Positions 8,884 to 33,623 of a stretch of 64,000 nt of DNA are shown here, one piece after another (positions within the stretch are counted from its first letter, which is position 1; each line of letters opens with the position of its first letter). Origin of the DNA: Pricia antarctica (GTDB lineage Bacteria; Bacteroidota; Bacteroidia; Flavobacteriales; Flavobacteriaceae). The stretch is from the NCBI GenBank assembly GCA_011050085.1, contig DRGL01000014.1:1-64000 (forward strand), given 5' to 3'. The notes beneath the pieces were generated by a model. It worked only from the letters and a program-made list of their open reading frames with translations, did no database searches and was not told where the DNA came from. The position numbers and the translations under genes are program-made.

Positions 8884-8887
8884 AGGT

Positions 8888-10147: not shown

Positions 10148-10160
10148 GGCTTTTAATCGC

Positions 10161-10955: not shown

Positions 10956-10987
10956 AGTTTCTCTTTTATAAATTTTCGACCAAAAGT

Positions 10988-11017: not shown

Positions 11018-11053
11018 CTGTAATAATTGCAAATATATGTAATTTTTACACAC

Positions 11054-12265
11054 ATGAACAATAAGTGGCGAAAATTTGACGAATCCCTTGACTTGGTTTT
11101 CCTATTTGAACATTTTGGATTGGCCGAAAAGCGGAAAATGCGGAAGTATATCAGCTATGGCACCCATAGCTCCAGTTACATAGTCATCAGCACGGATTTG
11201 GGTTATCGGTACTATAGGCCGAGTGCACCTGAAAAAAAACTTACGGCTTTTGATTTTATATTGGAGCGTATTTCACGCGACGACGCAAATACCAAATTGG
11301 GGCTTTGGTCAAGGCTCGATGAGTTCTATACTTCCATAGATAAGAAACCGGACTTTTTTGTGAACGACAGATCGAAAAATACATTGGAGGCCGTTGCGCC
11401 CGATTACAACCATTTCAACGATTTCGAGTCGGAGTTTTCATTGACCGTGCAAACGGCTCGGTCGGCATCCTTGCAAATCTTCGAGGACAGGATTTTCGAA
11501 AATGCCAAGGGCCAATTATATTTTCCGTACCGAAATCTCGCAAACAACCTTACGGGGTATGTCACGGAAAAGGGAGGCAAGCTATCCTTGCTAGCAGAAA
11601 GTGCCATATTCGAATCGGTTTGGTTCAGTAAGGTGCCCAAGACCATAAAAAATCTGGTCGTTTTGCGAAACCCAATGGAGGCCTTGGCATTTCAAGGCAG
11701 GTTTGAACTTGAAGATGTGATTTTCCTGGCACTTTCCGACATCAATTATAGAAGTTCTAAAATACTCCTGCAAATCTTAAAGCGCACCAAATTGAAAAAA
11801 ATGGTGCTGAGCTTTACGGGTTCCTCCAAAATCGAAGGCTATATTCAGGATTTGATGCTGATCTCCTTTATCAACGATTCCCGCTTTTTGGTCAGGGTCG
11901 ACAAAGATCATCTTACGGTCAAATTCCACCCCGAGGGACAGAAACCTTTGGCGAAACTGCACAATGAAATCCTGAAATACAACAGCGGTCTGATGAAGGA
12001 ATACCTGAAGTTCAATAAAATTACCGACCAGTCCCTACTCGATAGAAAGAGTATCGTATTGAACCAGGAGAAGGAGTGGGTAGCTTGCCGAATTCCCTAT
12101 GAGGTAAATGCGCTCCGCTATTTTCTTTGGAGCTATTATCGTAATTACATGCATAAAATAATTGAAATAGTAAAACCGACAAACGCCAATTGGGCAATAG
12201 AGTATGAAGAAAACGGGGCCTATACCGGCACCGAAAAATTAAAGGCCTTTAAAATGGCCGTATAA
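11054..12265 (+). CDS. Primase-like protein with a degenerate Toprim-type region
   Basis: A 403-residue protein read from the ATG at 11054, since the longer in-frame TTG at 11027 lies only a few bases after the predicted transcription start. The architecture parallels the Toprim primase two genes downstream: an N-terminal region with a Y-R-Y-Y-R-P and phenylalanine-rich helix, then a central F-P-Y-R-N-L ... G-Y-V-T-E-K block, then alternating strands resembling a Toprim fold (L-V-V-L-R-N-P-M-E-A-L-A-F). The catalytic Glu of Toprim is replaced there by Asn and no clear D-x-D follows. It may therefore be a non-catalytic paralogue acting in plasmid-type replication or mobilization. This is an inference from pattern similarity only. 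Confidence 0.65.
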   Translation: MNNKWRKFDESLDLVFLFEHFGLAEKRKMRKYISYGTHSSSYIVISTDLGYRYYRPSAPEKKLTAFDFILERISRDDANTKLGLWSRLDEFYTSIDKKPDFFVNDRSKNTLEAVAPDYNHFNDFESEFSLTVQTARSASLQIFEDRIFENAKGQLYFPYRNLANNLTGYVTEKGGKLSLLAESAIFESVWFSKVPKTIKNLVVLRNPMEALAFQGRFELEDVIFLALSDINYRSSKILLQILKRTKLKKMVLSFTGSSKIEGYIQDLMLISFINDSRFLVRVDKDHLTVKFHPEGQKPLAKLHNEILKYNSGLMKEYLKFNKITDQSLLDRKSIVLNQEKEWVACRIPYEVNALRYFLWSYYRNYMHKIIEIVKPTNANWAIEYEENGAYTGTEKLKAFKMAV

Positions 12266-14660: not shown

Positions 14661-17126
14661 ATGCAAGATAAAAACAAAGGGTACATGGGCATGTACTTGT
14701 CAGCTTTCTACTTTGTCATAATCGTCTTTCACGAATATTATGCACTGTATGTTTATCACTATGGTCAACAACCTTTATTGGATAAGACCTACACGTATTT
14801 CGTTCGATCCGGGTTACCTACCAAGGGTATGATGGCCCGTGTGCTGTTATTGGGTCTTTTGATGGGCGGGATCATGATATACCGGCCCATCAAGAAGGAA
14901 AATATCGATCGCACAAAAAGTGTTGTAGGATTTACAATTTCCCTAAGTATTCTTTTTATATCGGGTCTTCCTTACGGAACCTCATTGAGCGGTATGTATA
15001 TCACTTTGATGCTTCTGACCTGTTCTTATCTTGGCCTGATGACCTATGGTATGCGTTTGTTCCAGTTTCTCGATTTTATGAACTTGGCCGAGAAAGACCC
15101 GTTCAATGATGCGAACGAAACTTTTAAGCAGACCGAAGAGCGAATCGATACGCCCCACTCCGTAAATATTCCGTATGCCTATACACATAAGGGGAAGCAA
15201 CGAAAAGGGTGGATTAATTTTGTAAACCTCTTTCGGTCTTTGCTCGTTATCGGAACTCCGGGCAGCGGTAAGTCTTTTTCGGTAATCGAGGAAATCATGG
15301 CGCAGTTCATCGATAAGAAATTCGCTATGGTCATCTACGACTTCAAGTTCGATACCTTGACCCGAAAAGCCAATGGATACTTGCAAGAAGCCAAGAAAAA
15401 GGAAGGGGACAATTCTGAAATACCTTTTCCAAAATTGTATCGAATTTGCTTTGACGACCTGAGAATGACCCATAAGAACAACCCTATGGATCCCTACAGA
15501 CTGACGAATCAATCGGATGCCATCGATACCGCCGCGACCCTTATGAAGAACTTGAACCCGGAATGGATCAAGAGGCAGGACTACTTTTCGCGAAGTGCCA
15601 TCAGTTATACCGGAGGCTGTATCTGGTATCTTAAGAAAAAATCCGAGGAGACTGGAAACTATATCTGTACCCCAGGCCATTTGACCATACTGACAACGGT
15701 CAAAATCGATATCCTAATGGAAATCATGACCAAGGATGTCGAAGTGCGACAAATACTTGTACCCTTTCGTGACGCGCTCGAAAAAGAGGCCATGGAACAA
15801 TTATCGGGTCAGACCAGTACCGTTCAGATAAGCCTTTCCAGTATGGCGACCAAAGAAATTTTTTATGTGATGTCCGGCAATGACTTTAGTCTTGATGTCA
15901 ATGAACCAAGATATCCTAAAATCGTATCGCTTCAGAACAATCCCGAGCGAAAGGAAGTCTACTCCGCTCCTTTGGGCCTGTATATGAACACCATTCTAAA
16001 ACAGGTCAACAAACCGGGCAAGCGCCCGATGGCCCTTATAATCGACGAGGTGCCGACACTGTTCATCATGTTGTTACGGACTATTATCGATACCGGTCGC
16101 GAGAACAAAATCGCTACAATCTTGGGCCTGCAAAGCGTTGGCCAGCTCATCTTGGACTACGGCAGGGAACTGGCCGATGTTATATACGCGAACTGCGCCA
16201 ACGTAATCTGCGGTGCCGCCAAAGGGGAGACCGCAAGACGATTGAGCGAGCTTTTCGGCAAAATACATCAAGAACGGATATCAAAAAATACGAGCAGTTC
16301 CGACGTGAGTACCAATTGGAGCACGCAGATGATGGAGCTTTTGCCCAAAAGCAAGATTGCTTCGATGTCGACAGGTCATTTTGCAGGTTTGTTGGCGGAT
16401 ACTTTCGAGCACCAGATACCGGAGAAAAAATGTTATGGTCAACTCCTTCCGGATATTGAAGGAAAAGAACGGGCCATGAAACATGAGCTGCCCATCGTCA
16501 ACGATTTCAGACCTGCGGATTACAAGGAACGTTTCGATGCGGAAATGAAACTCATCCGGGAACTGGAACTTGCGAAAAAAACCAGTCTACTTTTCGCGAG
16601 AGAAATCGGTTACATCGAGTTTTACGGAGCGCATCTGGACAAAGTGGGCAACAGTAGTTTTTCCAACGTTACTAAACGCAGAATCTTTAAAAGCGTGGTC
16701 AAGGAGCTTCGCCTTTTCGAATACAAGAGTTCAATTTTAGAACTTTTAAACGAAGGTGCCGGTTCCCTTAAGTGGGGAAAGCTGTTCGGACACATTATAG
16801 AAGAGTTTTTGGTGCAAACGGAAATGGACCGGGTAGCTCAGGCGAAATTTGATCAGATTATCAACGAAGTCGACGAATTGGTCAAGGAAGAGTATAAGCG
16901 CAGAACCGGAAAAGAACTGAAGAGTGCCATATTTGACGAAAAGAAAATAAATGGTGAAATTGCAAAGTCGTTAAATAATTCGGAGACGGAAGTTGCCGAG
17001 TTTATGGATAACTTTGAAAAAGAGCTGAAAGATTCCGAAATGAACTTTTTGGCCGACGTACAAGAAGAATCGCAAAACATTTTTGAGGAGAAATTTTCCT
17101 CTCATCCCATAGAAAATTTTGAATAA
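14661..17126 (+). CDS. VirD4/TraG-type conjugative coupling protein ATPase
   Basis: An 821-residue membrane ATPase that links the DNA-relaxase complex to the secretion channel. Four hydrophobic segments lie in residues 12-130. The nucleotide site is clear: Walker A G-T-P-G-S-G-K-S at residues 198-205 and Walker B A-L-I-I-D-E at 458-463, followed by the TraM-recognition type C-terminal domain. The C-terminal 100 residues are highly charged and probably coiled coil. It follows the Toprim primase by 45 bases. In Bacteroidota literature the coupling protein has been named MobC or TraG, so I give no symbol. Its stop overlaps the next start by one base. Confidence 0.92.
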   Translation: MQDKNKGYMGMYLSAFYFVIIVFHEYYALYVYHYGQQPLLDKTYTYFVRSGLPTKGMMARVLLLGLLMGGIMIYRPIKKENIDRTKSVVGFTISLSILFISGLPYGTSLSGMYITLMLLTCSYLGLMTYGMRLFQFLDFMNLAEKDPFNDANETFKQTEERIDTPHSVNIPYAYTHKGKQRKGWINFVNLFRSLLVIGTPGSGKSFSVIEEIMAQFIDKKFAMVIYDFKFDTLTRKANGYLQEAKKKEGDNSEIPFPKLYRICFDDLRMTHKNNPMDPYRLTNQSDAIDTAATLMKNLNPEWIKRQDYFSRSAISYTGGCIWYLKKKSEETGNYICTPGHLTILTTVKIDILMEIMTKDVEVRQILVPFRDALEKEAMEQLSGQTSTVQISLSSMATKEIFYVMSGNDFSLDVNEPRYPKIVSLQNNPERKEVYSAPLGLYMNTILKQVNKPGKRPMALIIDEVPTLFIMLLRTIIDTGRENKIATILGLQSVGQLILDYGRELADVIYANCANVICGAAKGETARRLSELFGKIHQERISKNTSSSDVSTNWSTQMMELLPKSKIASMSTGHFAGLLADTFEHQIPEKKCYGQLLPDIEGKERAMKHELPIVNDFRPADYKERFDAEMKLIRELELAKKTSLLFAREIGYIEFYGAHLDKVGNSSFSNVTKRRIFKSVVKELRLFEYKSSILELLNEGAGSLKWGKLFGHIIEEFLVQTEMDRVAQAKFDQIINEVDELVKEEYKRRTGKELKSAIFDEKKINGEIAKSLNNSETEVAEFMDNFEKELKDSEMNFLADVQEESQNIFEEKFSSHPIENFE

Positions 17127-19531: not shown

Positions 19532-19855
19532 ATGGAAAACAAGCTGGTAAGAATCCCAAAGGCCCTTCAGAAGGATGTATTCTTCTTCGGGCTACGCGCT
19601 AAATATGTGGACCAAGCCTTCAAGGGAACGTTCCTCTCCTTGATGTTGGGGCTGTTCTTAAGTACGTTCATACCTACTTTTCTCAGTCTTTTACTTTCCT
19701 TCTGTGCAGCGGCAGTTTACGTCGGGCTGATGCTCTTCTATTCCAAAGCATACGGTGAAAACGGTTTCATTAAATCCCGAGCGGACAAGAAAGGCCCGGA
19801 TGCCATCAAAGGTCATGTGAACAAAAAACTCCTCGTGCTATGGAAAAAACGGTAA
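19532..19855 (+). CDS. traF: TraF family (DUF4133) conjugation protein
   Basis: A 107-residue protein with the VirB3-like TraF/DUF4133 layout: a short basic N-terminus (R-I-P-K-A-L-Q-K-D-V-F), the motif F-G-L-R-A-K-Y-V, and two adjacent transmembrane helices (about residues 32-72). A conserved-looking polar C-terminus follows. It probably docks the VirB4-type ATPase at the inner membrane. Its 3' end overlaps the traG start by 16 bases, so the pair is co-translated. Confidence 0.85.
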   Translation: MENKLVRIPKALQKDVFFFGLRAKYVDQAFKGTFLSLMLGLFLSTFIPTFLSLLLSFCAAAVYVGLMLFYSKAYGENGFIKSRADKKGPDAIKGHVNKKLLVLWKKR

Positions 19856-22431
19856 ATCTATTGGACACTTTTCCTATTTATGGGTACGAGGCCCCTATTC
19901 TGGTGTCGAAAGAAAAAGGTTGTATCAGTATTCCGTTGGAATTGGAGCTTCCGGAAATCTACACTATGGATGGAAAGGACTATATGAACCTGAACCGAAT
20001 AGTCTCCGGTATTCTGGAAATAATGGGGGAAAATTGCCTGTTGCACAAACAGGATCTTTTCTTCGGGGAAACCTATGCCGTTGATCCTTTGCGGATGAAA
20101 CGCGATTTTTTCGAAACGCAGGATGAACTCTACTTTAAGGAAAGACCTTTTTTAAGACACCGTTCCTTTTTGGCGATACACAAGGTACCCAAGAACTATA
20201 TCGGCCGAACACCTCTAGGTGTCAATTCTTTTTTAAAAAAGGAACGCGGTTTCTATGGGAAAAACCCATTACCCGCAGAATATCTGAACACCGAGGTCAT
20301 GGCCGATTTTGAGGCCCGTGTCGGGGCCGTAAACGACCTGATAAACGATTCCGGTTTGATAGGCTCGAAAATATTGGGGTATGAAGACCTTTTCGAATCG
20401 GCCGGGTACTACGATAATTATCTGGAAGCAAGCTACCAAGCAGGTGCTGGCAGGGATGTTGATTTTTCGGGGAACACCTTGCACATCGGGGACAAACAGG
20501 GGCAGTACTTTACGCTGGAAAACTTGGACCAATTTTCAAAAGAGGATATGGCCTTTCATGAGTATTTCGGAAAATACACCACCGGTGAAAACCTTTTCCC
20601 TATCAGCAATCTGTTCTCTTTGGGCTTTAAGATTCCGCACGAACATATCATCAACCAATACATCTATATCCCGGAGAAGGAAAAGGCCATGGGTAGGCTA
20701 AGGTCAAAGGCCAAACGCTTGAACAAATACGCCACCAATCGCAAAGGGGACAAAAACAGCACCTATCGGGACCAAATCTACGAGTTCCAACAATCGATAC
20801 TGAACGACCACAAAGAATTGGTGTATTACCACCTGAACGTACTGGGGTTGGCCGATTCCAAAAAGACCTTTCGGTCGATGTGCAACACCGTCAAATCCGC
20901 ATTCGGAAAATTGGGCATCCATGCCAAGGAAAATTCCGTGGATCGCAAAAAACTATTTTTCGGGGGCATTCTCGGTAACGGCATCGGTACGAGTATGGAA
21001 CTGTACAGTCCGTTTTCCTCCGAAATGGCTTCCAGTCTATGGTATTTCGAAGGAGGTTATAAAAACAGGCTTCACGGTCCACACGGGCTGCGTATGGTCG
21101 ATAGGGCCACGGGACAACCTTTATTGGTCAGTCTCTATCGCGAACCGGAGGAAAAGGATTGGATATTTAACCGGGGGATGCTCATAGCATCGGGATCGGG
21201 CGGAGGAAAGACCTTCTTTACAAACGCCTATCTGTACTCGGAATATCGTGAAGGTGCGGAAATTTTGATCCTTGAAAACGGAAACTCATATGACAAGCTA
21301 TTGGACCAACTGAACGGAGTCACAATAGCGAACGACGACCAAAACCCATTTACCTTCAATCCCTTTATACTCGATTCTATAGATGTTGTCGTTAAGGATG
21401 GCAAGAAAACCCTGACCGAACATAAACTGACCCAACTTATCGCTTTGGTGTATTTACTATATGGCCGTAAGGATAATGAAGCAGGGGATACCCATGATAA
21501 CACAGTAGTCCGTACGATTATCGAGTTCTTGGTTCAGGGATATTATCAACATCAGTTTTCAAAGGGTAGTTCCGACGATTCTTTTAATACGTTCTACGAC
21601 TACACACATCAAAATTTGAAAGCCCTAATGCAAACGAAGGGCATCCGAGATGAAATATTCGATCCCAATCTGTTCTTATTGTTGCTCAGCAAATACGCTC
21701 ATGACGGGCCGAGGGCGTACCTCTTGAATAGCAGGGATAAAAGAATAGCTCAACTGAGCCAGGAAAGACTGGTCTATTTCAAATTGGAAAATTTGGTCAA
21801 TAATGAAGAACTTTTCCCCATCGTGGCATTTTTGATGATCGATGTGTTCGACAAAAAGTTGAAGGACCCGAAGAAACTTTCCCTCAATAAAATATTGGCC
21901 GTGGACGAGGCATGGAACCTGTTCGACAACCCCATTATGGCCAACTATTTCGATGCCAAATCCAGGATGGCAAGAAAGTATGGAGGACAGCCCATATTCA
22001 TATCACAGAAGGTCGACGATTTCGTAAAATCAAAATTTATCGGCAAGACCATCGTGGTGAACAGTCATATCAAAGTGCTGCTCGACCTTGGTGAATTCGC
22101 CAACTCCTTTGATGAAATCCAGAACATATTAGGCCTGAACGCCAAACAAAAGCAACTGAACCTTTCCGTCAACAAGGATTTACCCATAGGCCGAAAACTA
22201 AGGGAAATGGCAATTTGTTGGAAGGAAAGGGTCAAGGTTTTTGGACTGGAAACATCCTTACCGACCAAATGCCTGTTCGAAACGAATCCGAACGAAAAAG
22301 CAAAAATCAATAGGCTGCATGAACAGCACGGTTATGATTGGGAACGAACCGCGATCGCCTATAAACAATTAGTGATGGAACAAACCGATAGGGATTTGAA
22401 AACCCTGAACGGAAATAGTAAGAACACTTAA
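19840..22431 (+). CDS. traG: VirB4-type conjugation ATPase TraG
   Basis: An 863-residue ATPase that powers assembly and transfer through the channel; called TraG in Bacteroidota elements although homologous to VirB4. Walker A G-S-G-G-G-K-T lies at residues 452-458. Walker B I-L-A-V-D-E-A-W-N-L-F is at 685-695, and the motif I-F-I-S-Q-K-V-D-D-F follows. The N-terminal half (residues 1-430) is the VirB4 N-domain. Length is normal for the family and no disruption is seen. It overlaps traF and is followed by traI after 12 bases. Confidence 0.93.
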   Translation: MEKTVNLLDTFPIYGYEAPILVSKEKGCISIPLELELPEIYTMDGKDYMNLNRIVSGILEIMGENCLLHKQDLFFGETYAVDPLRMKRDFFETQDELYFKERPFLRHRSFLAIHKVPKNYIGRTPLGVNSFLKKERGFYGKNPLPAEYLNTEVMADFEARVGAVNDLINDSGLIGSKILGYEDLFESAGYYDNYLEASYQAGAGRDVDFSGNTLHIGDKQGQYFTLENLDQFSKEDMAFHEYFGKYTTGENLFPISNLFSLGFKIPHEHIINQYIYIPEKEKAMGRLRSKAKRLNKYATNRKGDKNSTYRDQIYEFQQSILNDHKELVYYHLNVLGLADSKKTFRSMCNTVKSAFGKLGIHAKENSVDRKKLFFGGILGNGIGTSMELYSPFSSEMASSLWYFEGGYKNRLHGPHGLRMVDRATGQPLLVSLYREPEEKDWIFNRGMLIASGSGGGKTFFTNAYLYSEYREGAEILILENGNSYDKLLDQLNGVTIANDDQNPFTFNPFILDSIDVVVKDGKKTLTEHKLTQLIALVYLLYGRKDNEAGDTHDNTVVRTIIEFLVQGYYQHQFSKGSSDDSFNTFYDYTHQNLKALMQTKGIRDEIFDPNLFLLLLSKYAHDGPRAYLLNSRDKRIAQLSQERLVYFKLENLVNNEELFPIVAFLMIDVFDKKLKDPKKLSLNKILAVDEAWNLFDNPIMANYFDAKSRMARKYGGQPIFISQKVDDFVKSKFIGKTIVVNSHIKVLLDLGEFANSFDEIQNILGLNAKQKQLNLSVNKDLPIGRKLREMAICWKERVKVFGLETSLPTKCLFETNPNEKAKINRLHEQHGYDWERTAIAYKQLVMEQTDRDLKTLNGNSKNT

Positions 22432-22443: not shown

Positions 22444-23073
22444 ATGAAAAATCGAATACTAAAAATGACCATGGCCATATGTTTTATAGGGATACTTCCT
22501 TGTTTGGCAACCGCGCAGATTCCGGTGACCGATGTAGCGGCGAACGCACAATTGGTACTGCTCAACTCAAATGTGGCGACGCTCAATTCGCAACTGGCCA
22601 CTTTGAACGCGACCATGGGCAAGCTATTGGCACAGATGGAACGCAACGTTACCGCCAACTCCAGTTCCTCCAAAATCTTAAGTCAAGACCTGAGCGCGAA
22701 AAGAACGCCAGCCAGCTATGTCATGGGAAGTCCTGAAATGAACGAACTCTACGAACTAAAGGATAAGATCTTAGCGGCATATAAGGGTACGCAAAAGAAC
22801 CTACGAACCTTTACCAACTTGGAAAAAGTGGAAAAGAAGAGGGCTGCCGAGACATTGGCGGATGCCGTCCTACAGGTATCCTCACTTGTTTCCCAAGGTT
22901 CACAAATTGCATCCACCGGTGAAATTATCGAATCGGCGGACAGGCTATCGGCGCTCAGATCAATCTTGGAAAAGATGAACGGGTTATTGGACGATGTCAT
23001 CAAAGTCAACACATCCCTTCTACAAAAAAACGAACACCGTAAAGCCGTCCATTCACTTATAAAAACAAATTAA
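22444..23073 (+). CDS. traI: TraI-like (DUF4141, VirB5/TrbJ-type) secreted protein
   Basis: A 209-residue protein with a clear signal peptide (hydrophobic core then A-T-A-Q at 22-25). The mature chain is nearly all helical with Asn/Leu/Ala heptads (residues 40-75) and coiled-coil segments to the end. This fits the TraI/DUF4141 family of Bacteroidota, which is comparable to VirB5/TrbJ minor pilus or adhesin subunits. It lies between traG and the multi-pass traJ, and its stop overlaps the traJ ATG. Confidence 0.78.
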   Translation: MKNRILKMTMAICFIGILPCLATAQIPVTDVAANAQLVLLNSNVATLNSQLATLNATMGKLLAQMERNVTANSSSSKILSQDLSAKRTPASYVMGSPEMNELYELKDKILAAYKGTQKNLRTFTNLEKVEKKRAAETLADAVLQVSSLVSQGSQIASTGEIIESADRLSALRSILEKMNGLLDDVIKVNTSLLQKNEHRKAVHSLIKTN

Positions 23074-23987
23074 TGTACGCCTTACAATCAAGTTCTGGCT
23101 TTCGGGTAACGGTCAATTCCATATTCGACCAGTACATCGGCGATGCTTTTGCCAGTTTGGGGCCTACGTTGAGCATCGGATTCGGAATGGCGAAAATCGG
23201 TTTGGGCATTTTTGCCCTTACACACTTTGCAGGTAATGATCGAGCGGATGTTATTAAGGCGTTGAAATGGTTTCCCTTAATGTTCATTTTGTTCAACTAT
23301 TCGGAATTCGCACACGCCATTTTTGAATTTTACAATAATCTAGGTTCATCGTTTGTCAGTACCCAAAAAAGTTGGGATACCATCGGCCAAAAAATAGCTT
23401 TGGCGCAGATCGATGTAGCGGCGAACAACCTTGTGGAATGGAACCTGTTGAGTATGGACATCGATGGCCTACAGTCGTTCGCCCTGACCGGACTGGCCGG
23501 TTCCATAACCGCGTTCGCACATATAATCTCTACCTTGATATTCATCGGCATCAAGGCATTGGCCACCATTTATCTTTTCATTCTCATCATTTTCGGGCCT
23601 ATCAATATTGGACTTTCGTTCATTCCCGCTATTTCGGGACTCTGGAAAGCATGGCTGCAAAAGTTCATGAGTATCTGTCTTTGGCTGCCCATGCTCTACG
23701 TGGTGGATATGTTCATGGTCAACCTTGTGGATAAGTTGGTCGATCATTTGCTTCGATACAGTTCCTATGATCTGGGACTGATCTTAAGTTCGTCCATGTT
23801 GATACTGATGACCTCGTTTTTTTATATCAAGGCACCTACTTTGGCAAATTTTGTGGTTCAAGGCCTTAATATTTCAGGAGGTGGCATTGTCGCCAAACCA
23901 AAACATTATAGTAAAAAAGCGATTCAAACGGCCATGGACGTTAAAAGTGGAGGAGCTACCAAAGCTGTCCGAACATTAATCCAATAA
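23073..23987 (+). CDS. traJ: TraJ-like (VirB6/TrbL-type) polytopic membrane protein
   Basis: A 304-residue inner membrane protein with about six to seven hydrophobic segments (near residues 25-50, 62-85, 130-150, 150-180, 185-215, 235-255). The I-I-F-G-P-I-N-I-G-L-S-F-I-P segment is typical of TrbL/VirB6-like channel proteins. A short basic C-terminal tail is cytoplasmic. It overlaps the traI stop by one base and precedes traK by seven bases, matching the order traI-traJ-traK of Bacteroidota elements. Confidence 0.85.
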   Translation: MYALQSSSGFRVTVNSIFDQYIGDAFASLGPTLSIGFGMAKIGLGIFALTHFAGNDRADVIKALKWFPLMFILFNYSEFAHAIFEFYNNLGSSFVSTQKSWDTIGQKIALAQIDVAANNLVEWNLLSMDIDGLQSFALTGLAGSITAFAHIISTLIFIGIKALATIYLFILIIFGPINIGLSFIPAISGLWKAWLQKFMSICLWLPMLYVVDMFMVNLVDKLVDHLLRYSSYDLGLILSSSMLILMTSFFYIKAPTLANFVVQGLNISGGGIVAKPKHYSKKAIQTAMDVKSGGATKAVRTLIQ

Positions 23988-23994: not shown

Positions 23995-24621
23995 ATGGAA
24001 GGAAAGTACGGGATTATCAATGACATTGCCCAGAGTAGAAGGCACAACAATAGATTGGTATATGGTTGTTTGGTAGTGGTCATTATGGTTTTTGGCATGG
24101 CTACCTATTATGTAATGAAGGCGGATCAGCGCGCCAAGAACAATGCATATCTGCTTCATGGAGGGCAAAGATTGCCCATGGCCCCCATTAGGGATGTCCA
24201 AGAAAATCTGGAAATTCTCTGCGAGGGCCATCTTTACAATTTTCATGAGCTGTTTTTCTCATTGGAGCCCAATTTGAAGCTAATTAAAAGAAACATTGAA
24301 GGAAAGGCATTACACATGGTCGACTGGTCAGGCAACCGCTTATACGCCCGTTTGGTCGAAAAAAAGTACTTCCATGATGTGGCAATGCGCGACTATCGCT
24401 ACTTTGTGGAACTTGATTCGATCCAAATCGACTATGGATCCTACCCGTTTCCGTTCACATTTTACGGCAAACAGGCCATAGAAAAAGGCAAATCAACAAC
24501 GTATAGAAACCTGATTACAAAGGGACAATTAAAAAAGGCGGGGGTTACCCCGAACAATTTGAACGGTATAAAGATTATCGACTTTCAGGTCGTAGACAAT
24601 TCCGACCTGGAGCGCATGTAG
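23995..24621 (+). CDS. traK: TraK-like (VirB8-type) conjugation protein
   Basis: A 208-residue protein, the normal size for TraK. A cytoplasmic N-terminus of about 20 residues is followed by one transmembrane helix (V-V-V-I-M-V-F-G-M-A-T-Y-Y, about residues 23-39) and a periplasmic alpha/beta domain of the VirB8/NTF2-like type ending at R-M. It bridges the inner membrane and the core complex. It sits between traJ and the VirB10-like traM. Confidence 0.85.
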   Translation: MEGKYGIINDIAQSRRHNNRLVYGCLVVVIMVFGMATYYVMKADQRAKNNAYLLHGGQRLPMAPIRDVQENLEILCEGHLYNFHELFFSLEPNLKLIKRNIEGKALHMVDWSGNRLYARLVEKKYFHDVAMRDYRYFVELDSIQIDYGSYPFPFTFYGKQAIEKGKSTTYRNLITKGQLKKAGVTPNNLNGIKIIDFQVVDNSDLERM

Positions 24622-24622: not shown

Positions 24623-25630
24623 TTGAAATTAAAGGAACAAATACAAGTTGTGAAGAGATGGGTGGTCAGAAACCAAAAGGTTGCTATGGCTTTACCTCTC
24701 ATTCTGATAATGACCAGCTTTTTTGTCATCGAAAATCTAAAGGATTTTCAGATGGGCGGTAACAAGGCGGCAAACCTGAACGGGTTTAATACCGAATTGC
24801 CGGGCGAGACACCGACTTTGGATTCCGATACCGCAGGCCGGCAATGGAAGGTCAAGGATTCCTTGGAAAAGGAAGCTGCAACTAACCTAAAAGATTTGGA
24901 AAATTCCGAAAACGACTCGCTCCAACGGATTTTAAAACAACTGGAAGGTTTGTCCATGAAACCGAAAACTAAGGAAACCACTAGTGCAGAAATTCCGGAA
25001 ATCAAAAAATCGATAGATAGAAAGCGGCCCGAAATGACCGAAGATGAGAAAAAACAACAGTTCGTGGAGAACCGGTTGGCCTACCGCGAGAAGCTATTGG
25101 AGGGAAAAGAGAAAATGATAGGCGATTCCCAAACCAACCAAGGTTATTCGCCCGCTGAGCCGATTGTCGATATCGAGAAGTCAATATCGATTAGAGCTAC
25201 CGTATATGGCGACCAATTTATATTGCCCAATGAGAATGTCCGATTGCTGCTCATGGAAGATATGGTTCTAGAGAAGAAAAGGTTCAAGAAGAATACGTTT
25301 ATATACGCCATGGCCTCGATTAAGGGGAACAGGGTTTTTCTGGACATCGACAATATCGAACATCATCCAGTGAATCTATCTGTCAAAGATTTTAACGATG
25401 GTCGTGAAGGCATCTATAGCACAAGGGCTGGCGAACTATGGCGGGAATATAAAGCCAATGCGAGCAACGATCTACTGACCGGTGTGAGTGAAGAGTTGAC
25501 CAACGGTTCTCCCGATCTGGTGACCGATATAGTAAGAGGATTGGGATCCTTCCTTAGAAAGAAAAAATTACGGGAGAAAGAAAAGATTCTTTTGATGGAC
25601 GATTACGAACTTTTATTGGTAACGCAATGA
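24623..25630 (+). CDS. traM: TraM-like (VirB10-type) conjugation protein
   Basis: A 335-residue protein starting at TTG one base after the traK stop; an in-frame GTG at codon 10 is an alternative. One transmembrane helix (residues 21-36) is followed by a long charged, Pro/Glu-rich linker with coiled-coil character (residues 60-190). A C-terminal beta-rich domain (S-I-R-A-T-V-Y-G-D-Q, G-N-R-V-F-L-D-I-D) is typical of VirB10/TraM, with F-S at the G-V-S-E-E-L-T end region. It spans the periplasm to contact the outer membrane ring. The stop overlaps the traN start. Confidence 0.84.
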   Translation: MKLKEQIQVVKRWVVRNQKVAMALPLILIMTSFFVIENLKDFQMGGNKAANLNGFNTELPGETPTLDSDTAGRQWKVKDSLEKEAATNLKDLENSENDSLQRILKQLEGLSMKPKTKETTSAEIPEIKKSIDRKRPEMTEDEKKQQFVENRLAYREKLLEGKEKMIGDSQTNQGYSPAEPIVDIEKSISIRATVYGDQFILPNENVRLLLMEDMVLEKKRFKKNTFIYAMASIKGNRVFLDIDNIEHHPVNLSVKDFNDGREGIYSTRAGELWREYKANASNDLLTGVSEELTNGSPDLVTDIVRGLGSFLRKKKLREKEKILLMDDYELLLVTQ

Positions 25631-26610
25631 GAATAAAAACCTTCATATCATTGTTTGTGTTATTCAGTGCGCTTTTTGGAAATGCGCAAACGGACACCAT
25701 TCCGGTTTCCAGGGATTATAAGACAATACTCGTCCTGCCCGAAATTTTCGATTTCTCAATCAACGGGAAAGAACTCAATTTCATCGAATCCTTCCCTGTC
25801 AAAAATGCGTCCGACAATGCAAAGCGTATCGTCTTGCTAAGTTACAATGACGTGGCACCCGATACCGAAGATCATACCAATTACACGGTGTATACTAGGG
25901 ACGGTCTTACTTATGATTTTATCTTAAGACTGATTGAAGTTCCTGTTAAGAAAAGATGGCCGATTACCAGATCTATGGCCGAAAACCCAGAAGCATTCTC
26001 TGCGCTAGAAGAAAGTTCCGATGTCCCAACTTCGGTAGCTACGCCAAAACCTCCAATGGAGCGTTCCGATATCGCTACAAGGACAAAAGAAGAAGAATTA
26101 GGGGTCTCGCCAAATGAAGAAACGAACGGGGAGCCTTTGCCGCTCACTAGGGAACTCTATGTGCTCGACCGCATGGAATACGTTCGTCGGCGATGTTACT
26201 ATAATCAGTTCAACAAAGGCAAGGTCATTCGCTATTTCGCCAAATACGATGACGTGTTCCTATGGCTTGAAAATGTCTTTTATGAATACAACGAAATATA
26301 CCTGCAGTTTCGTTTGAAGAACAAAGCGCACATGCCCTACGATGTGAATTTCCTCAAATTCCATATCGCTTCCAATTATAGGAACAGTCCGAACAACATC
26401 GATAAAAAACACGAGCCCTTGTTCCGATATAAAGTTCCTAAAAGGGTCGAAGGGAATTCCGAAAACTACTTTATGGTGGTCTTCGATAAGTTCACATTGG
26501 ATCGAAAGAAAGTACTTATGGTCAATGTGGACGAGGATAAGGGCAATAGGAACCTATCCCTGGATATCGACCATAGCGTTATCAATAACCCGTTAGCCTT
26601 TAAATTATGA
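25627..26610 (+). CDS. traN: TraN family (DUF4138, VirB9-type) conjugation protein
   Basis: A 327-residue secreted protein with a signal peptide ending F-G-N-A-Q (residue 21). The mature N-terminal domain begins with the typical K-T-I-L-V-L-P-E-I and V-L-L-S-Y-N-D beta strands. A low-complexity linker follows (residues 120-170), then a C-terminal beta domain with W-L-E-N-V-F-Y-E-Y-N-E-I-Y-L-Q-F-R-L-K-N, which is diagnostic for DUF4138/TraN. It should form the outer membrane core with TraM. It overlaps traM and traO by four bases each. Confidence 0.9.
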   Translation: MRIKTFISLFVLFSALFGNAQTDTIPVSRDYKTILVLPEIFDFSINGKELNFIESFPVKNASDNAKRIVLLSYNDVAPDTEDHTNYTVYTRDGLTYDFILRLIEVPVKKRWPITRSMAENPEAFSALEESSDVPTSVATPKPPMERSDIATRTKEEELGVSPNEETNGEPLPLTRELYVLDRMEYVRRRCYYNQFNKGKVIRYFAKYDDVFLWLENVFYEYNEIYLQFRLKNKAHMPYDVNFLKFHIASNYRNSPNNIDKKHEPLFRYKVPKRVEGNSENYFMVVFDKFTLDRKKVLMVNVDEDKGNRNLSLDIDHSVINNPLAFKL

Positions 26611-27158
26611 GAAATGTTCGTTTTTGTCTAGCGATGGCATTATTGTTATCGGCTTCATTCTGCTTTGGCCAACTGAGAGGTAATCTGGCCTCATCGGTCG
26701 GTTTGAGCGGTGGGTATGTCGAGGATGGTTACGGTATCATGGGCACCTTCAATTTTCATCCCGACCGGTACCGGTATTTTCAGATAAGCATATTGGCCGC
26801 CATTGCCGAGGATAAAGGAAGTCAAGATATACCCTACAACATTTTTACTATTCAACCGGGAATCTATTACCGGGTATTCGTAGCACCGCGAAAGAGAAAT
26901 TTCAGCTTGTTTCTAGGCGGGGGCGGACTCTTCGGATACGAGGTCATCAACAATGGCAGTAATGAACTTCCAAGCGGAGCTTTGATAAACGCCAAAAGTC
27001 AATTCGTCTATGGCCTCTATGTCGGGGCGGAAGCGGAAGTAGGTATCAGCAATGATTTTTCCCTGCTCATAAAAGCGAACGAATACTACCATATCAATTC
27101 CGATGTTGGGAATTTTTATCCGTATGCCGGAGTCGGCCTACGTTATTTTTTGTTCTAA
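26607..27158 (+). CDS. traO: TraO family outer membrane conjugation protein
   Basis: A 183-residue protein with a signal peptide (L-L-L-S-A-S-F-C-F-G-Q) and a mature beta-barrel pattern of alternating aromatic/glycine strands ending in G-V-G-L-R-Y-F-L-F, whose final Phe is an outer membrane insertion signal. Its place after traN and its G-I-Y-Y-R-V-F-V strand fit the TraO family of Bacteroidota elements. The next gene starts ten bases after its stop. Confidence 0.85.
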   Translation: MRNVRFCLAMALLLSASFCFGQLRGNLASSVGLSGGYVEDGYGIMGTFNFHPDRYRYFQISILAAIAEDKGSQDIPYNIFTIQPGIYYRVFVAPRKRNFSLFLGGGGLFGYEVINNGSNELPSGALINAKSQFVYGLYVGAEAEVGISNDFSLLIKANEYYHINSDVGNFYPYAGVGLRYFLF

Positions 27159-27168: not shown

Positions 27169-30100
27169 ATGAAAATGAATGCCCCACAACGGATATTCGC
27201 GGTAACAACGCTATGTTTAGCTCTGATATTGGCATGTAGTAAGGACTTTGAGGATATCGTACAAGATTCCTTCGACTTTACGTTTGAAGGCACCAACGAA
27301 GAAAATGGATTTGTATTCGAAGCGACTAAAACGGATTTCATATTGGAACCCGAACGGATGGTTTCCAATGTTTCCTATTTCATGAAATACGATAATATTG
27401 ACGGAAAAGGATATTACATAGGAACCGAAAACGATACGGTCCATGCGAACGATACCATATCGGTCAAAAATTTCAATCTTTCATACCGTTATATGCCCAT
27501 TGATACAGGAATGCACAAGGTAAAAGTCTTGGCTTGGGATTCCAATAAAATTGAGAAAGAGCTGGAATTGGTATACAACGTCAAGTATGCGAGTTTTAGC
27601 TTTTTACTGGGAAAGGGTACCGATGATTTCATTATCAACAGTCAAAACCCAGTAACAGTTACCTTGCTCAGGGACAAGGAAACGTTGTCTCCCGATAGCG
27701 ACAGAAATCAAGACTTCGAGATAACCTACCAATTGGAGAACGGCTCGGGAAGACTTTATTTGGATGACGTTGTCCATGATGCGGGGGAGCCTTTCAAATT
27801 GCCCAAGGGGGTAACGGAATTTGGATATCTTCCCGAAACGTTGGGCGAGCATAAATTGACCATGACGGCGAAGGCTCCCGATGGAGCGACCATTTCAAAC
27901 GTACTCATCTTAAATATCGGCAATGTCAATTTCACATTCAGGGCAACAGCGGCTTCCTCACAGGTCGAATTGGATTCCAATTTGGCTCTGAATATCGATT
28001 TGCGAACGCAGGACGAGGAAAGTGAGGTAACCTACGACATAAGCCATTCCTTTTCAGCGGATAGCCAGGGGGCAGGAACCGTGCGCGACCAAAATGGTGG
28101 GGTCATGGATACCGGAACCTTTCGTGATATAGCACCTGGAAACTTTAATTTTACCTTCGAGGACGACGCATTGGGACAGCGGAAAATCTACTTTGATGTG
28201 CGGGACAGCAATGGTCAGATGAAAAGGGATAGTGTCGAAATCGAAGTGGCCAATATTCCGTTTACCTTCAGCGGAAATGCCGAAAGCAACCAAGTTTTCA
28301 TGAACCAACGTACCCAGCTTAATTTTAATATCAAATCAAGCGGTAATACGGATAACATCGAATACTTTTTGAACTACAACTTGGAAGAAGGAAATGGAAG
28401 GGTTACGGGAATCAATGGAAATACGATTACGAACAATACGGATTATCCCGTAAACTTGGGTAATTTCTCCCTTTTCTATACACCTGAAACGCTGGGCACA
28501 CATCGAATAAGTTTTTTGGTAACCGACAATTATGGGCAAGCGGTCGGACCGGTAGAAATCGATCTCGATACCGAAGAACTGGAACTGGAGTTCAATGCTT
28601 CCGCCAACAGCAGTGAGATATTGGTAGGCCAACGGGGTACCGTGGCCTTAAGCCTAATCGAAAAAGGGGACTATAATGGGGTATCCTATGAACTCAACTA
28701 TTTTATATCAGGAGGCAGTGCGGCATTGTATAATGGCAACTCCGAGATTACACAAAGTCGCTATTTTTCCGTAAATCCGGGCAGTTTCGCTTATGATTTT
28801 ATCGCTGAACAGGCTGGAACCTATGAAATTACGTTTCTTCTGCGTGATAGCAACGGCCAGATTTTGGAAGAAAAAGTGATTTTGGTAGTTGGGAACAATG
28901 ATTTTACGGTCAATATGACTCCTTCGAAGGCGACGGAGTTTTCCAACTTTCCGGTAGGCATCATCGTGGATATCGATGAAGTGCCCGAGGGAGCAAACGA
29001 CAGTTATACCGCATTTTTTTCCTCCAGCCAAAATGGTTCGATGTCGGTCAATGGTATCATTTATGGTCCGGGCGAGGAATTTCCGCTGGGCGCAGGAGTC
29101 AACAACATCTCCTACACGGGATTGGAACCGGGTCAGCATAACATCGTTATCAGTGTCGAATCGGGTTCCGATGTGACCCGAACCGCAAATACGGTTATCA
29201 CGTTCGATCAAGTGGATTTTATATTTACCGGCGGTAGTCAAAAATCGGATATATCGGTCGGTGAGACCACCAACCTCAATTTCAATATTTCGGAAAGTGT
29301 GGGATCTTCCGACTATACTATACGTTTCAGCATGAACGGAAACGCAAGACTTACCGATAGTAACGGTGCAGAGGTAAGTCCGGGCAACAGTTACGATGTA
29401 AATACGGGCAACTTTAACTGGACGCTTGAAGGTACCGATGAGAGTACCGTGAAAATGGTTTTTACAGTCCAAAATGATACAGGACTTGAAAAAACCGTAG
29501 ATATAACCGTAAACGTGGCGGCCAAAGATTATACCTTCAATGCATCCGCAACCTCACAGCAGGCCTATACCGACGAAATGGTCGATATGAACTTCAATAT
29601 ATCCGAAATTGGAATTGGCGGAGACACCTATGAAATGTATTTCTCGGCAGGTGGCAATAATGGTACGTTTGAATTCGGCGGTACCAACTACTCCGCCGGG
29701 GAAAGTTTTACGGTACCCGTTGGCTCGTTCTCCGGGAAGTATTCTGGTTCCTCGGAAGGTAGTCACAACATTACGTTCACGGTACGGTCATCTTCTGATG
29801 TGGAAAAAAGGGCAAACGTCAATATTAATTATACGGTATATGAGGAGGCGTTCACGTTGAACCTGAGTCAATCTTCCCAAGATAAATATATTGATGTTCC
29901 GTTCGATATAACTGCAATAACAAATGCTACTTCAGGGAATGATCCAAGTGTTACATACTCGATAACATTTACATTTATTGGTGCAAGCGCGGGTATGCTG
30001 CGTTATAAAAATGTTCTTTATGGAGAGGGTGAAATCATTCCTTTGGATTACGGAAGCGCCCCTATGCAGTTTACCCCTGAAACCGACGAGAACTTTACAA

Positions 30101-30525
30101 TAAACTTTTTAGTGGAAAACTCGACGGGACAGTCCCAGAGGACGAGTGAAAGTGTTGAGATGTTCAAACGGCCATTTGCCGTCGCAAAAGGCGAAAAGCG
30201 AAATGTGAGTTGCGGGGGTCTAAACGGATGTGACTATGAGGTGGGTATATATACCTGTTTTGAGGCGAATTGTTCAGAGGCTTATAACGGCGCCAATCTG
30301 CAGCAGGTCGAGATTCGTATATACAATGCCAAAGCTGGAAGATGGGACACTAAACTACTAAACTACAACAATGCGACCGGTACTGGTGTAGACCGTTATT
30401 TTCTTCTTGAGAAGGAGCCTAGCGAGGGAAAATTGAAATATCTAGATCAAGATTACGAACTGAGGGTTCGGGACAGTAACGGGCAATGGAGTGACTGGAC
30501 ATCGGGAACTATAGTCAGGGTGTAA
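27169..30525 (+). CDS. Giant TraQ-like surface lipoprotein with nine Ig-like repeats
   Basis: A 1118-residue lipoprotein read from the ATG at 27169, where the signal peptide begins; the frame is open further upstream. The lipobox L-I-L-A-C places the lipid-modified Cys at residue 23. The chain holds nine tandem beta-rich repeats of about 95-112 residues, beginning near residues 48, 143, 255, 365, 474, 579, 685, 788 and 895. Each has an opening aromatic strand (F-x-F-x-A), a G-N-G/N-G turn, an F-x-x-x-Y-T-P-like strand, and a closing I-x-F-x-V-x-D-S-x-G-Q strand. The single unit resembles the TraQ/DUF3872 domain that follows TraO in Bacteroidota elements, but here it is multiplied. A different C-terminal domain (1002-1118) has four clustered Cys (1015, 1021, 1030, 1035). 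Likely a long surface fibre used in mating contact or exclusion. Confidence 0.8.
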   Translation: MKMNAPQRIFAVTTLCLALILACSKDFEDIVQDSFDFTFEGTNEENGFVFEATKTDFILEPERMVSNVSYFMKYDNIDGKGYYIGTENDTVHANDTISVKNFNLSYRYMPIDTGMHKVKVLAWDSNKIEKELELVYNVKYASFSFLLGKGTDDFIINSQNPVTVTLLRDKETLSPDSDRNQDFEITYQLENGSGRLYLDDVVHDAGEPFKLPKGVTEFGYLPETLGEHKLTMTAKAPDGATISNVLILNIGNVNFTFRATAASSQVELDSNLALNIDLRTQDEESEVTYDISHSFSADSQGAGTVRDQNGGVMDTGTFRDIAPGNFNFTFEDDALGQRKIYFDVRDSNGQMKRDSVEIEVANIPFTFSGNAESNQVFMNQRTQLNFNIKSSGNTDNIEYFLNYNLEEGNGRVTGINGNTITNNTDYPVNLGNFSLFYTPETLGTHRISFLVTDNYGQAVGPVEIDLDTEELELEFNASANSSEILVGQRGTVALSLIEKGDYNGVSYELNYFISGGSAALYNGNSEITQSRYFSVNPGSFAYDFIAEQAGTYEITFLLRDSNGQILEEKVILVVGNNDFTVNMTPSKATEFSNFPVGIIVDIDEVPEGANDSYTAFFSSSQNGSMSVNGIIYGPGEEFPLGAGVNNISYTGLEPGQHNIVISVESGSDVTRTANTVITFDQVDFIFTGGSQKSDISVGETTNLNFNISESVGSSDYTIRFSMNGNARLTDSNGAEVSPGNSYDVNTGNFNWTLEGTDESTVKMVFTVQNDTGLEKTVDITVNVAAKDYTFNASATSQQAYTDEMVDMNFNISEIGIGGDTYEMYFSAGGNNGTFEFGGTNYSAGESFTVPVGSFSGKYSGSSEGSHNITFTVRSSSDVEKRANVNINYTVYEEAFTLNLSQSSQDKYIDVPFDITAITNATSGNDPSVTYSITFTFIGASAGMLRYKNVLYGEGEIIPLDYGSAPMQFTPETDENFTINFLVENSTGQSQRTSESVEMFKRPFAVAKGEKRNVSCGGLNGCDYEVGIYTCFEANCSEAYNGANLQQVEIRIYNAKAGRWDTKLLNYNNATGTGVDRYFLLEKEPSEGKLKYLDQDYELRVRDSNGQWSDWTSGTIVRV

Positions 30526-30555: not shown

Positions 30556-31035
30556 TTAACTTCGCTTGTAGGTATAAGTAATTACAACTTCTTGGCCGTC
30601 TACAAAGTCGTCTTGTTCCAATACTAATCTGTTCTTGTCAAATTCGATGATCCTCATCTCGTTACGGTTATCAAAACGAATGATTTTATCGTTCACAAGC
30701 TCGTATCTGTCGGATTCTACGGTTTCAAATGCATTAACTTCCCCACAACTCAGTCCGTTTTCATTAATACTGAAAGCATTTTTCTCTTCCCCTCCCCTCG
30801 AAGCGAAAAAGGTAAGGTTATCCTTTAGGCACTGGCGGATTTCATTGGTATTGTATAAATCGATATTTACCGTTCCGTCGCCATTGATATCTACAGCGGT
30901 GTCGGACATGATTGCTTCGTATTCCCATTGGCCGAACAAAGCTTCGTTTCTGTCATCTACGGAAACTTCATCATCCTTGTTACATGAGAGTATTACCAAC
31001 ATTATGGATATACAAATAATTTTAAAAATTTTCAT
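30556..31035 (-). CDS. Small lipocalin-like lipoprotein
   Basis: A 159-residue protein read from the ATG at 31035. It has a lipoprotein signal (I-M-L-V-I-L-S-C, lipid Cys near residue 18) followed by an acidic linker. The mature domain begins L-F-G-Q-W-E-Y, the opening of lipocalin-like lipoproteins common in Flavobacteriia, and ends in beta strands (V-V-I-T-Y-T-Y-K). A D-I-N-G-D-G-T-V string at residues 49-56 looks like a calcium-binding turn. It faces the TraQ-like gene tail to tail with 30 bases between and no obvious terminator. It may be the last gene of the element or the first outside it. Confidence 0.72.
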   Translation of the reverse strand: MKIFKIICISIMLVILSCNKDDEVSVDDRNEALFGQWEYEAIMSDTAVDINGDGTVNIDLYNTNEIRQCLKDNLTFFASRGGEEKNAFSINENGLSCGEVNAFETVESDRYELVNDKIIRFDNRNEMRIIEFDKNRLVLEQDDFVDGQEVVITYTYKRS

Positions 31036-31565: not shown

Positions 31566-33623
31566 TTAAATGAGTTCGTTGTCCTCTAAAGTCTTTTTGA
31601 GCTTAGCATGATTCTCCCAAAACCTGTCGTTTATCTTTTGGATAGTTCCCTCATAGGCAGGATGACTTTTCATGAGTTTGATTAGCGGGTCTTTTTCCAA
31701 GAACAACAAAATCCAATATTGGTAATTATCCTGCAATGCGAAAAGTTTGAGCTGCTCCATACCCTTGTCCACTTTTCCCTCATAGGCATACTTTACGGCC
31801 ATGCTAGCGCCCTTGTAAATGGATTTGTCACTTGCTAAATATTCACTATACCACTTAAGAAATTCATTTGCTTCTTCTTCAAACCCCATTTTCTGATAGA
31901 CCAATCCAATCTTTATATCCTCATGGGGATATATATCCCAATTGAACTTTTTTCTAGCTTCTACGAATTTCTGGTAATAGGTAAAAGCACCTTGATAGTC
32001 TTCCTCGATATAATATAGTTTCCCTATATCCTGTAGAATATCCAAGCGGGTGCTATCCTTTTCGAACTCTTTTTTTAAGGTTGTTTTGAGCCGTTCCAAA
32101 TTTTCATCCACAACATACTGAATGAACGCTTTTAAATGTGGGGCATATAAGTTATTAGGGTCGTAATCTAGCGACTTGTTGACATATTTCATGGCCTCTT
32201 CGGTGAAACCACTTTGGGCAAGGGCATTGCTTAAATCCAAATAAATGAAACTTTGGCCCAGTGAGTCATTGGTTGCAACATCCAATTGTGCGCCTTTTAG
32301 AGCATTGGTTAGGTACTTTGCGGTATTAGGTATATAGATAGAATATAATCTAGAAAGCAGTTGAATAACATCGGCCGAATTAGGATTGTATTCCAGTGCC
32401 TTTTCCAAATGAGGTAGAGCCAATCGATATTCTTCGGTATGCATATAATATAATGCTTTGGATATAAGGCTTACATCATTCTTTGAATCATAGAGCAGTG
32501 CCTTGTCCGCATAATTGTTGATAAGGTCGGTATACCGTTTCTGTTTCTGGAAGATATCGAGATAATAATAAGATATGGCGAGATTGGCATAGGCGAGCGC
32601 GAATTGTTCGTCCTGCTGTACGGCCTTTTCAAATAACGGGATGGCCTTTTCCAAGCCTTGCGTAGTCCGCGAATAAAAAGGGTTCAATGCTTGGAGGAAA
32701 TAATCATAGGCCACCAGATTTTCAGTAGGCTTTTTTTCTATTTGCTCCAATTCGGCAGGGGTCACTACAGCTGCAATGGCATCTGCAATTTTCTTTGCAA
32801 CATCGTTTTGCAACCCAAAAATATCTTCTACTTCCCGACTGTACTGTTCCACCCAAATAGGGGTATCAGTCGAAGCGTTAATTAATTGTACGTTGAGCAA
32901 AACTTGATTGCCTACGCGTTGGCCACTACCTTCTACCAAATAGTTAACATGCAGTTCTTCGGCAATCTCTGGAATGCCCTTGTTCGTTTTTCTATATTTC
33001 TCTACCGAGGTTCTACTGATTACCCGTAAGTCTTCAATTTTCTGAAGGTTGTTCAATGCGGATTCCATCAACCCGTTCACGAAATAAAGATTGGTGGAAT
33101 CGGCACTTTCATTTTTGAAGGGCAACACGGCGATGGATTTTTCAACTTCCAGCTTCTGTACGGCAACCGTTTTATTGAAAATCAAAAATGCAACAATCAG
33201 CAATACTATGGATGTGCCCGCGATAATAGGCCATCGGTATATCTTCAAATAGTTCCGCTTAACCTTTTCGGTTTCCACTTCTATAGCACCTTTGCCAACC
33301 TCTCCGGGCGGATATCCATATTGTTCCCGAAAACATTTAATGAAGTAGGAAGTGCTTCCAAAACCCACTTGATACGAAATTTCGGAAACCGTCGAAGAAT
33401 CTTCCTTGAGCAGTTCCATAGCTTCTTTAAGACGGACTTGACGAATAAATTGACTTGCGGAAAGTTGTGTTTGTTTCTTGATTTTCCGAAGCAAGTTGGA
33501 CCGGCTCATATTCATGGCATCTGCCAATTCAGAAACCCCAAATTGGTCGTTACCCAAATTATTCATAATCAGGGCTTCCGCTTGTTCAATAAAGGTCGAT
33601 GTGTTGGCCGGTGTGTTTGACAT
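31566..33623 (-). CDS. AraC-type regulator with TolB-like and TPR sensor domains
   Basis: A 685-residue one-component regulator. Residues 25-108 form an AraC/XylS double helix-turn-helix (F-G-V-S-E-L-A-D-A-M-N-M-S-R-S-N-L and V-S-E-I-S-Y-Q-V-G-F-G-S). A single transmembrane helix at 131-150 follows, then a TolB-N/FlgO-like domain (K-S-I-A-V-L-P-F-K-N at 162-171) and about six TPR units to residue 650. The DNA-binding part is cytoplasmic and the TolB/TPR part should be periplasmic. It is divergent from the tandem peptide genes at 33860, with a 236-base region between, so it may regulate them. Its domain order is the reverse of the regulator at 43103. Confidence 0.87.
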   Translation of the reverse strand: MSNTPANTSTFIEQAEALIMNNLGNDQFGVSELADAMNMSRSNLLRKIKKQTQLSASQFIRQVRLKEAMELLKEDSSTVSEISYQVGFGSTSYFIKCFREQYGYPPGEVGKGAIEVETEKVKRNYLKIYRWPIIAGTSIVLLIVAFLIFNKTVAVQKLEVEKSIAVLPFKNESADSTNLYFVNGLMESALNNLQKIEDLRVISRTSVEKYRKTNKGIPEIAEELHVNYLVEGSGQRVGNQVLLNVQLINASTDTPIWVEQYSREVEDIFGLQNDVAKKIADAIAAVVTPAELEQIEKKPTENLVAYDYFLQALNPFYSRTTQGLEKAIPLFEKAVQQDEQFALAYANLAISYYYLDIFQKQKRYTDLINNYADKALLYDSKNDVSLISKALYYMHTEEYRLALPHLEKALEYNPNSADVIQLLSRLYSIYIPNTAKYLTNALKGAQLDVATNDSLGQSFIYLDLSNALAQSGFTEEAMKYVNKSLDYDPNNLYAPHLKAFIQYVVDENLERLKTTLKKEFEKDSTRLDILQDIGKLYYIEEDYQGAFTYYQKFVEARKKFNWDIYPHEDIKIGLVYQKMGFEEEANEFLKWYSEYLASDKSIYKGASMAVKYAYEGKVDKGMEQLKLFALQDNYQYWILLFLEKDPLIKLMKSHPAYEGTIQKINDRFWENHAKLKKTLEDNELI

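Follow-up and report, generated by a model that had tools for sequence, protein, structure and literature searches.

The gene at positions 27,169 to 30,525 of the analyzed window encodes an apparently undescribed multi-unit form of the known TraQ family, which probably acts as a lipid-anchored surface contact fibre of an MPF_B conjugation machine, that is, as a mating adhesin, its roles in adhesion and mating being what we infer. The window is the whole stretch analyzed, 64,000 nt of Pricia antarctica (GCA_011050085.1, contig DRGL01000014.1, positions 1 to 64,000). The observation made in the original prediction is confirmed and its interpretation partly supported, and the model that follows from it is testable.

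A nine-unit TraQ-family protein closing a transfer operon

Judged by its gene content, comprising a TraG ATPase, traJ, traK, traM, traN, traO and a coupling protein, the window element is an MPF_B conjugation system; several of its tra genes score under NCBIfam cut-offs, making it a divergent member. The transfer operon runs in the order traG, a weak traI-like gene, traJ, traK, traM, traN, traO and traQ, with traQ closing the operon and beginning 10 bases after the end of traO, which bears out the TraQ position originally given to the gene.

14661-17126, forward strand: type IV coupling protein (PF02534)
19840-22431, forward strand: traG, VirB4-type ATPase (TIGR03783, 361.7 bits)
22444-23073, forward strand: probable traI-like T4SS protein, a weak assignment (PF07996, E 0.018; position)
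23073-23987, forward strand: traJ, TrbL/VirB6-like (PF04610)
23995-24621, forward strand: traK (TIGR03781, 137 bits, under its cut-off of 152)
24623-25630, forward strand: traM (PF12508, 103.5 bits)
25627-26610, forward strand: traN, DUF4138 (PF13595, 70.8 bits)
26607-27158, forward strand: traO (PF10626, 75 bits)
27169-30525, forward strand: traQ-family fibre gene, an intact open reading frame of 1118 aa (PF12988, 116.3 bits; nine units)
27169-27237, forward strand: signal peptide and lipobox ILAC with lipidated Cys23, followed by SKDFE, which resembles an export signal (sequence)
27271-27885, forward strand: base units u1 and u2, which the 4-, 8-, 9- and 11-unit forms all retain (unit mapping)
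27925-29793, forward strand: stalk units u3-u8, partly lost or amplified in relatives (unit mapping)
29851-30129, forward strand: u9, the most variable unit, 46-53% identical between two allele classes (sequence comparison of relatives)
30130-30522, forward strand: C-terminal domain (CTD), predicted beta-rich, with Cys1015, Cys1021, Cys1030 and Cys1035 and motif CGGxNGCDY (alignment; model pLDDT 92)
30556-31035, reverse strand: small convergent lipoprotein, lipocalin-like, with mature start CNKDDE (gene linkage, model, lipobox)

An alternative longer start of traQ at 27103 overlaps traO, and aligned relatives start at 27169. An iterated profile search resolves exactly nine units, at residues 35-126, 142-239 and 253-349 (u1-u3), 364-456, 472-563 and 577-665 (u4-u6), and 682-772, 787-875 and 895-987 (u7-u9), with a start-to-start spacing of 105-111 residues (mean 107.5), so that the nine tandem units and the period near 106 of the original prediction hold, as do its lipobox and its Cys-containing C-terminal domain, the latter occupying residues 988-1118 (131 residues) with four Cys and a CGGxNGCDY motif common to the aligned relatives. 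Windowed self-comparison gives scores of 60-81 at lags of about 107, 209-214, 319 and 423, against a maximum of 49 in 20 shuffles. Pairwise identity among the nine units is only 9-30%, for which reason the DNA-level repeat search of the gene returned chance pairs only; by these sequence identities, the units are old and divergent.

Against Pfam TraQ_transposon (PF12988; cut-off 27), the full protein reaches 116.3 bits (E 1.3e-33), and four stretches of it each exceed the cut-off alone. A PDB sequence search retrieves the three solved TraQ lipoproteins 4lba, 2l7q and 2l3b, with unit 4 matching best. In a model of u8-u9-CTD (pLDDT 92), u8 superposes on 4lba with Z 13.5 and an rmsd of 2.3 over 102 residues and on 2l3b with Z 13.4, the next unrelated rows standing at Z of about 10; comparison of the repeat fold with TraQ, which the original prediction had proposed as a check, thus returns a TraQ fold and not an unrelated one. 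By family score, by fold and as a lipoprotein encoded after traO, the protein belongs to TraQ_transposon. Foldseek places adhesin stalks (SiiE, RTX adhesin) at the top of the matches of the three-domain model and also lists Ig domains of PrgB, but on the modelled structure these matches appear generic for Ig tandems, Ig and FN3 domains dominating. No ligand-binding fold was recognized for the CTD in this search, an absence that is uninformative because the CTD was modelled only together with u8 and u9.

CTnDOT-type TraQ (PF12988; 4LBA, 2L3B, 2L7Q) shares unit family, fold, lipobox and the position after traO with the window protein, but consists of one domain of about 130-170 aa, whereas the window form has nine units, a Cys-containing CTD and a linked lipocalin-like lipoprotein. 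PrgB of pCF10 (8BEG), a mating adhesin with an Ig-like stalk, likewise combines a multi-Ig stalk with a distal domain on a conjugative element, but is Gram-positive and cell-wall anchored, and its structural match is of the kind that Ig tandems give in general.

Elsewhere in the window, a protein of 1668 aa that combines Eco57I-like methyltransferase and helicase domains (3177-8183, reverse strand) lies upstream of the transfer region, and a 685-aa protein with an AraC-type DNA-binding domain and TPR repeats (31566-33623, reverse strand) lies beyond the lipoprotein. A similarity to BSAP-5i immunity was also recorded (E 1e-4), far below the BSAP-5i cut-off.

Length variation, the exchangeable tip and two-unit relatives

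The TraQ survey sampled 395 genomes from across the phylum, 397 from the family and 40 from relatives. Two populations emerge. Single-domain proteins score high and have frames of mostly 140-180 aa, while long forms score low per unit and have frames of mostly 800-2400 aa. Single-domain TraQ of about 130-170 aa occupies the same operon position in most one-unit comparison loci. Conjugation-type long traQ has 4, 7, 8, 9 or 11 units in the named-genome survey and the earlier loci, 18 units in one genome, and 27 units in 3016 aa on the complete Flavobacterium plasmid NZ_AP027044.1. The comparison of repeat number among related elements, another check originally proposed, therefore spans 1 to 27 units, and the carriers of multi-unit traQ are related Flavobacteriaceae elements and plasmids.

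Mapped onto the units of the window protein, u5 is missing from the 8-unit form, four u8-like copies occur in the 11-unit form, and the 4-unit form corresponds to u1, u2, u8 and u9; units are lost and gained mid-stalk with both ends kept, so the stalk behaves as a spacer. Longer stalks arose by amplification of triplets: in the 18- and 27-unit forms, lag-3 identity is 43% and 56% versus 22-24% at lags 1 and 2. Multi-unit proteins carry the NCBI/RefSeq-style name 'TraQ conjugal transfer family protein', so automatic annotation already knows the TraQ family link. The original remark that no description of this form is known stands as regards the open-access literature, in which no description of the fibre form was found (subscription papers lay outside the coverage), but in databases it is no rarity.

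The variation at the distal end follows a different pattern. In seven 9-unit proteins that do not differ in length, identity is mostly 64-99% over u1-u8, but u9 splits into two classes that are 46-53% identical, and the CTD splits with it. The window element and locus L124 share 93% identity in TraG, 96% in TraJ, 95% in TraO and 90% in the stalk but only 60% in the tip, with dN of 0.02-0.09 in u1-u8 and 0.46 in u9, where synonymous change is saturated; conversely, L124 and L086 share 95% in the tip and only 84% in the stalk. The wider set contains 16 pairs with stalks above 85% and last units below 65%, and 12 pairs with the opposite pattern, and two 18-unit proteins of one genome are 70-94% identical over u1-u16 and thereafter 58, 55 and 33%. 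On these comparisons, the last unit and the CTD behave as an exchangeable tip.

A second class of fibre carries two N-terminal TraQ units followed by stalks of PKD, HYR, cadherin-like or tandem-95 domains and lies behind TssB, TssC (PF17541, E about 1e-237) and in some cases Hcp (TssD), with homologues of TraN (DUF4138) and TraO (PF10626) between the T6SSiii genes and the fibre (L048 at 4985-11733; L044, L046, L085, L105 and L107, with Hcp in the last three). TssC occurs in 14/14 genomes with the two-unit type versus 2/11 with only the conjugation type (Fisher p 2.7e-5, an optimistic value since the genomes are related; G541 is grouped with the two-unit type because the lipoprotein is absent, although its units are many). 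These loci resemble the window in the two N-terminal units, the lipobox and the upstream TraN and TraO homologues, but differ in their stalk domains and TssB-TssC-Hcp neighbours, the window having a TraQ-unit stalk, traG-K neighbours and a lipocalin partner. The window fibre is not a T6SSiii component: the only TssC of its genome lies on another contig (C53), next to a separate fibre of the two-unit type. The paper defining TssNQOPR as the membrane complex of T6SSiii (PMC10781749) mentions neither TraO nor conjugation in its text.

Several individual loci extend this picture. L107 (6726-18898, parts N-masked) holds four tandem fibre genes with a common first 256 residues, mostly 80-85% alike and 58-67% for the fourth, and with differing stalks and tips. 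At L106 (5681-15809), two traO-traQ pairs follow one another, with 4 and 18-19 TraQ units; the lipoprotein is absent, further transfer genes were not recognized, and the next gene is convergent and murF-like by eye. The window's own genome (G000; C14, C84, C74, C53) encodes three conjugation-type fibres (9, 11 and 11 units), whose lipoproteins share 49-62% identity, alongside a single fibre of the T6SSiii type. An identical TraQ protein accession occurs on plasmids of Arenibacter and Flagellimonas, an indirect sign of DNA transfer; across the compared part of the transfer region of these two plasmids, from Flagellimonas in China (NZ_CP092416.1) and Arenibacter in Sweden (NZ_CP022516.1), the protein accessions are identical, TraQ and lipoprotein included, and the Flagellimonas plasmid additionally carries erm(F).

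A convergent lipoprotein linked to the fibre gene

The small lipoprotein gene converging on traQ adjoins conjugation-type multi-unit traQ in 18 loci of the first set, in the complete plasmids examined and in 52/52 loci with an intact traQ array in the named-genome survey, covering several genera and stalk lengths; it also stands beside the 18- and 27-unit forms, which have different tips. Across 397 family genomes, strong lipoprotein matches (179-256 bits) adjoin multi-unit traQ except for one intact orphan, the next match scoring 58 bits. The linkage of lipoprotein and traQ is strict.

The intact orphan (G773:C68; L148, 7732-8217) is 80% identical to the traQ-linked copy of the same genome, and no transfer genes were found within the 20 kb read around it. 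At L203 and L204 (about 6001-6809), 12-kb loci that are 99.99% identical and titled as two species, a traQ CTD remnant lies beside an intact lipoprotein. These were set aside as proof of independent selection: a live element has a lipoprotein identical to the one at L203, so traQ may have been truncated recently.

The model of the window lipoprotein (pLDDT 78) matches 4qrl with Z 10.3 and an rmsd of 1.9 over 91 residues, and its score against Pfam Lipocalin_4 is weak (17.2 versus a cut-off of 22.4); as modelled, it is a lipocalin-like barrel. No Pfam match to TraT was obtained at E up to 1. Its N terminus CNKDDE fits the surface-export signal C-X-K-(D/E)2-X of C. canimorsus (PMC5080379), and 45/51 lipoprotein partners match C.[KNSD][DE] after the lipobox. 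From the lipobox and the NKDDE sequence, the protein is predicted to lie at the cell surface.

Over 55 elements, lipoprotein similarity correlates with that of the CTD (r 0.80), and a partial r of 0.58 persists with stalk and TraO controlled (0/2000 permutations); the last unit adds nothing once the CTD is controlled (partial r -0.04). An earlier reading from seven elements, in which the lipoprotein tracked the hypervariable u9 (r 0.80 with u9 plus CTD), was overturned by the 55 elements, the adjacent CTD being tracked instead. Since the CTD is the nearest DNA to the lipoprotein, their co-exchange is explicable by linkage alone, and functional coupling of lipoprotein and tip is only suggested. 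Among same-genome coexisting elements, none of 11 pairs has lipoproteins more than 80% alike, but since only about 5% of random pairs pass that level, the result is not significant. The M23 peptidase gene lying past the lipoprotein is present in too few loci for a cis-bounded cassette test to succeed.

It is worth weighing whether lipoprotein and tip have any functional tie, or simply co-travel as neighbours at the end of a conserved transfer module. Idle neighbours would fit the homology between elements, which ends just past the lipoprotein and before the AraC/TPR gene, the correlation being strongest with the adjacent CTD, and the discordant pairs, such as L160 and L163 of one genome (tips 86% alike, lipoproteins 55%) and L161 and L163 (last unit 84%, lipoprotein 52%). 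Such neighbours would, however, be expected to part somewhere, whereas the linkage holds in 52/52 loci over several genera, stalk lengths and different tips. This reading is possible, if on balance doubtful.

A proposed contact mechanism and its alternatives

In the proposed mechanism, the traQ fibre would be held by its lipid anchor and displayed on the donor surface, where base units u1 and u2 would join it to the portion of the outer-membrane apparatus formed by TraN and TraO. The stalk of tandem Ig-like TraQ domains would determine reach, and the last unit with the CTD would form the exchangeable tip contacting the recipient. The convergent lipocalin-like surface lipoprotein would be the likely recognition partner of the tip, and in the model we favour it would block the matching tip when the recipient has the element already, producing surface exclusion as Sfx does against IncC TraN.

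In IncC plasmids, sfx adjoins the gene of the adhesin TraN; its product, the lipoprotein Sfx, reduces conjugation selectively, depending on which TraN the donor has, and orphan sfx genes that are functional also occur (PMC11493245). This is the nearest experimentally proven arrangement: in both cases, a donor surface protein, predicted as such in the window, neighbours a small outer-membrane lipoprotein and orphan lipoproteins occur, but the T4SS classes differ and the likeness is one of arrangement. TraT of F-like plasmids (PMC11733297), a plasmid-specific outer-membrane surface-exclusion lipoprotein, has its candidate counterpart in the window lipoprotein, which is unlike it in being lipocalin-like and without a TraT family match. 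By analogy with Sfx, an exclusion role for the lipoprotein is a quite possible, tentatively held candidate.

Hypervariable tips and strict linkage would fit any surface target under attack, and a partner in cis as well as one in trans, so the tip might instead vary to escape tip-binding phages or grazers, with the lipoprotein shielding, chaperoning or capping the tip of its own cell. The conserved operon position and the analogous T6SSiii fibre point to cell-cell contact, making such an escape function unlikely.

Surface display of the window fibre is itself supported indirectly. Export signals of the forms C-X-K-(D/E)2-X (C. canimorsus) and SDDFE have been described, and Lys stands at +3 after the lipid Cys in 71/71 scored traQ copies with at least four units, the commonest sequence, CSKDFE, being near these signals (PMC5080379). 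Single-unit TraQ carries similar signals, so surface position alone would not imply fibre function. From the export-signal match, the stalk length and the exchangeable tip, we infer a surface location. At an estimated length of roughly 4 nm per Ig domain, nine units would span about 35-40 nm and 18-27 units about 70-110 nm, too long for the periplasm. A periplasmic scaffold, hanging inward from the outer membrane and bracing the transfer channel while unit number drifts, would accord with known TraQ proteins being small lipoproteins of the transfer apparatus and with a surface location that is only predicted, but is distinctly improbable given this length estimate, the +3 Lys with its acidic export-like motif and the exchangeable distal end.

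The original prediction offered a surface-exclusion fibre as one interpretation, and the chain is indeed a predicted surface lipoprotein encoded within the transfer operon, but its gene runs in the same direction as the transfer genes and, like that of apparatus TraQ, comes after traO, and the separate small lipoprotein at 30556-31035, absent from that prediction, suits exclusion better, so that exclusion was probably assigned to the wrong part and the chain is very unlikely to be the exclusion factor. The accompanying comparison with a pilus tip has nothing behind it beyond analogy.

Returning to the contact fibre, TraN-TraO-TraQ might constitute a portable outer-membrane contact-fibre module of two unrelated injection machines, MPF_B conjugation and T6SSiii, with an exchangeable tip and a cognate lipocalin-like lipoprotein for self-recognition and exclusion in conjugative elements, a generalization that is conceivable but doubtful. 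If the module serves both machines, the function common to both is cell contact, and its presence in T6SSiii would link DNA transfer and toxin delivery through one contact mode; the T6SSiii link deserves separate study. To our knowledge, the conjugation machine of Bacteroidota has neither a pilus nor an adhesin assigned to it with which a donor would first grip a recipient. The traQ fibre provides a named candidate for this first donor-recipient contact, and its natural length variants (1 to 27 units), tip swaps and linked candidate exclusion gene make contact distance, mate choice and exclusion testable.
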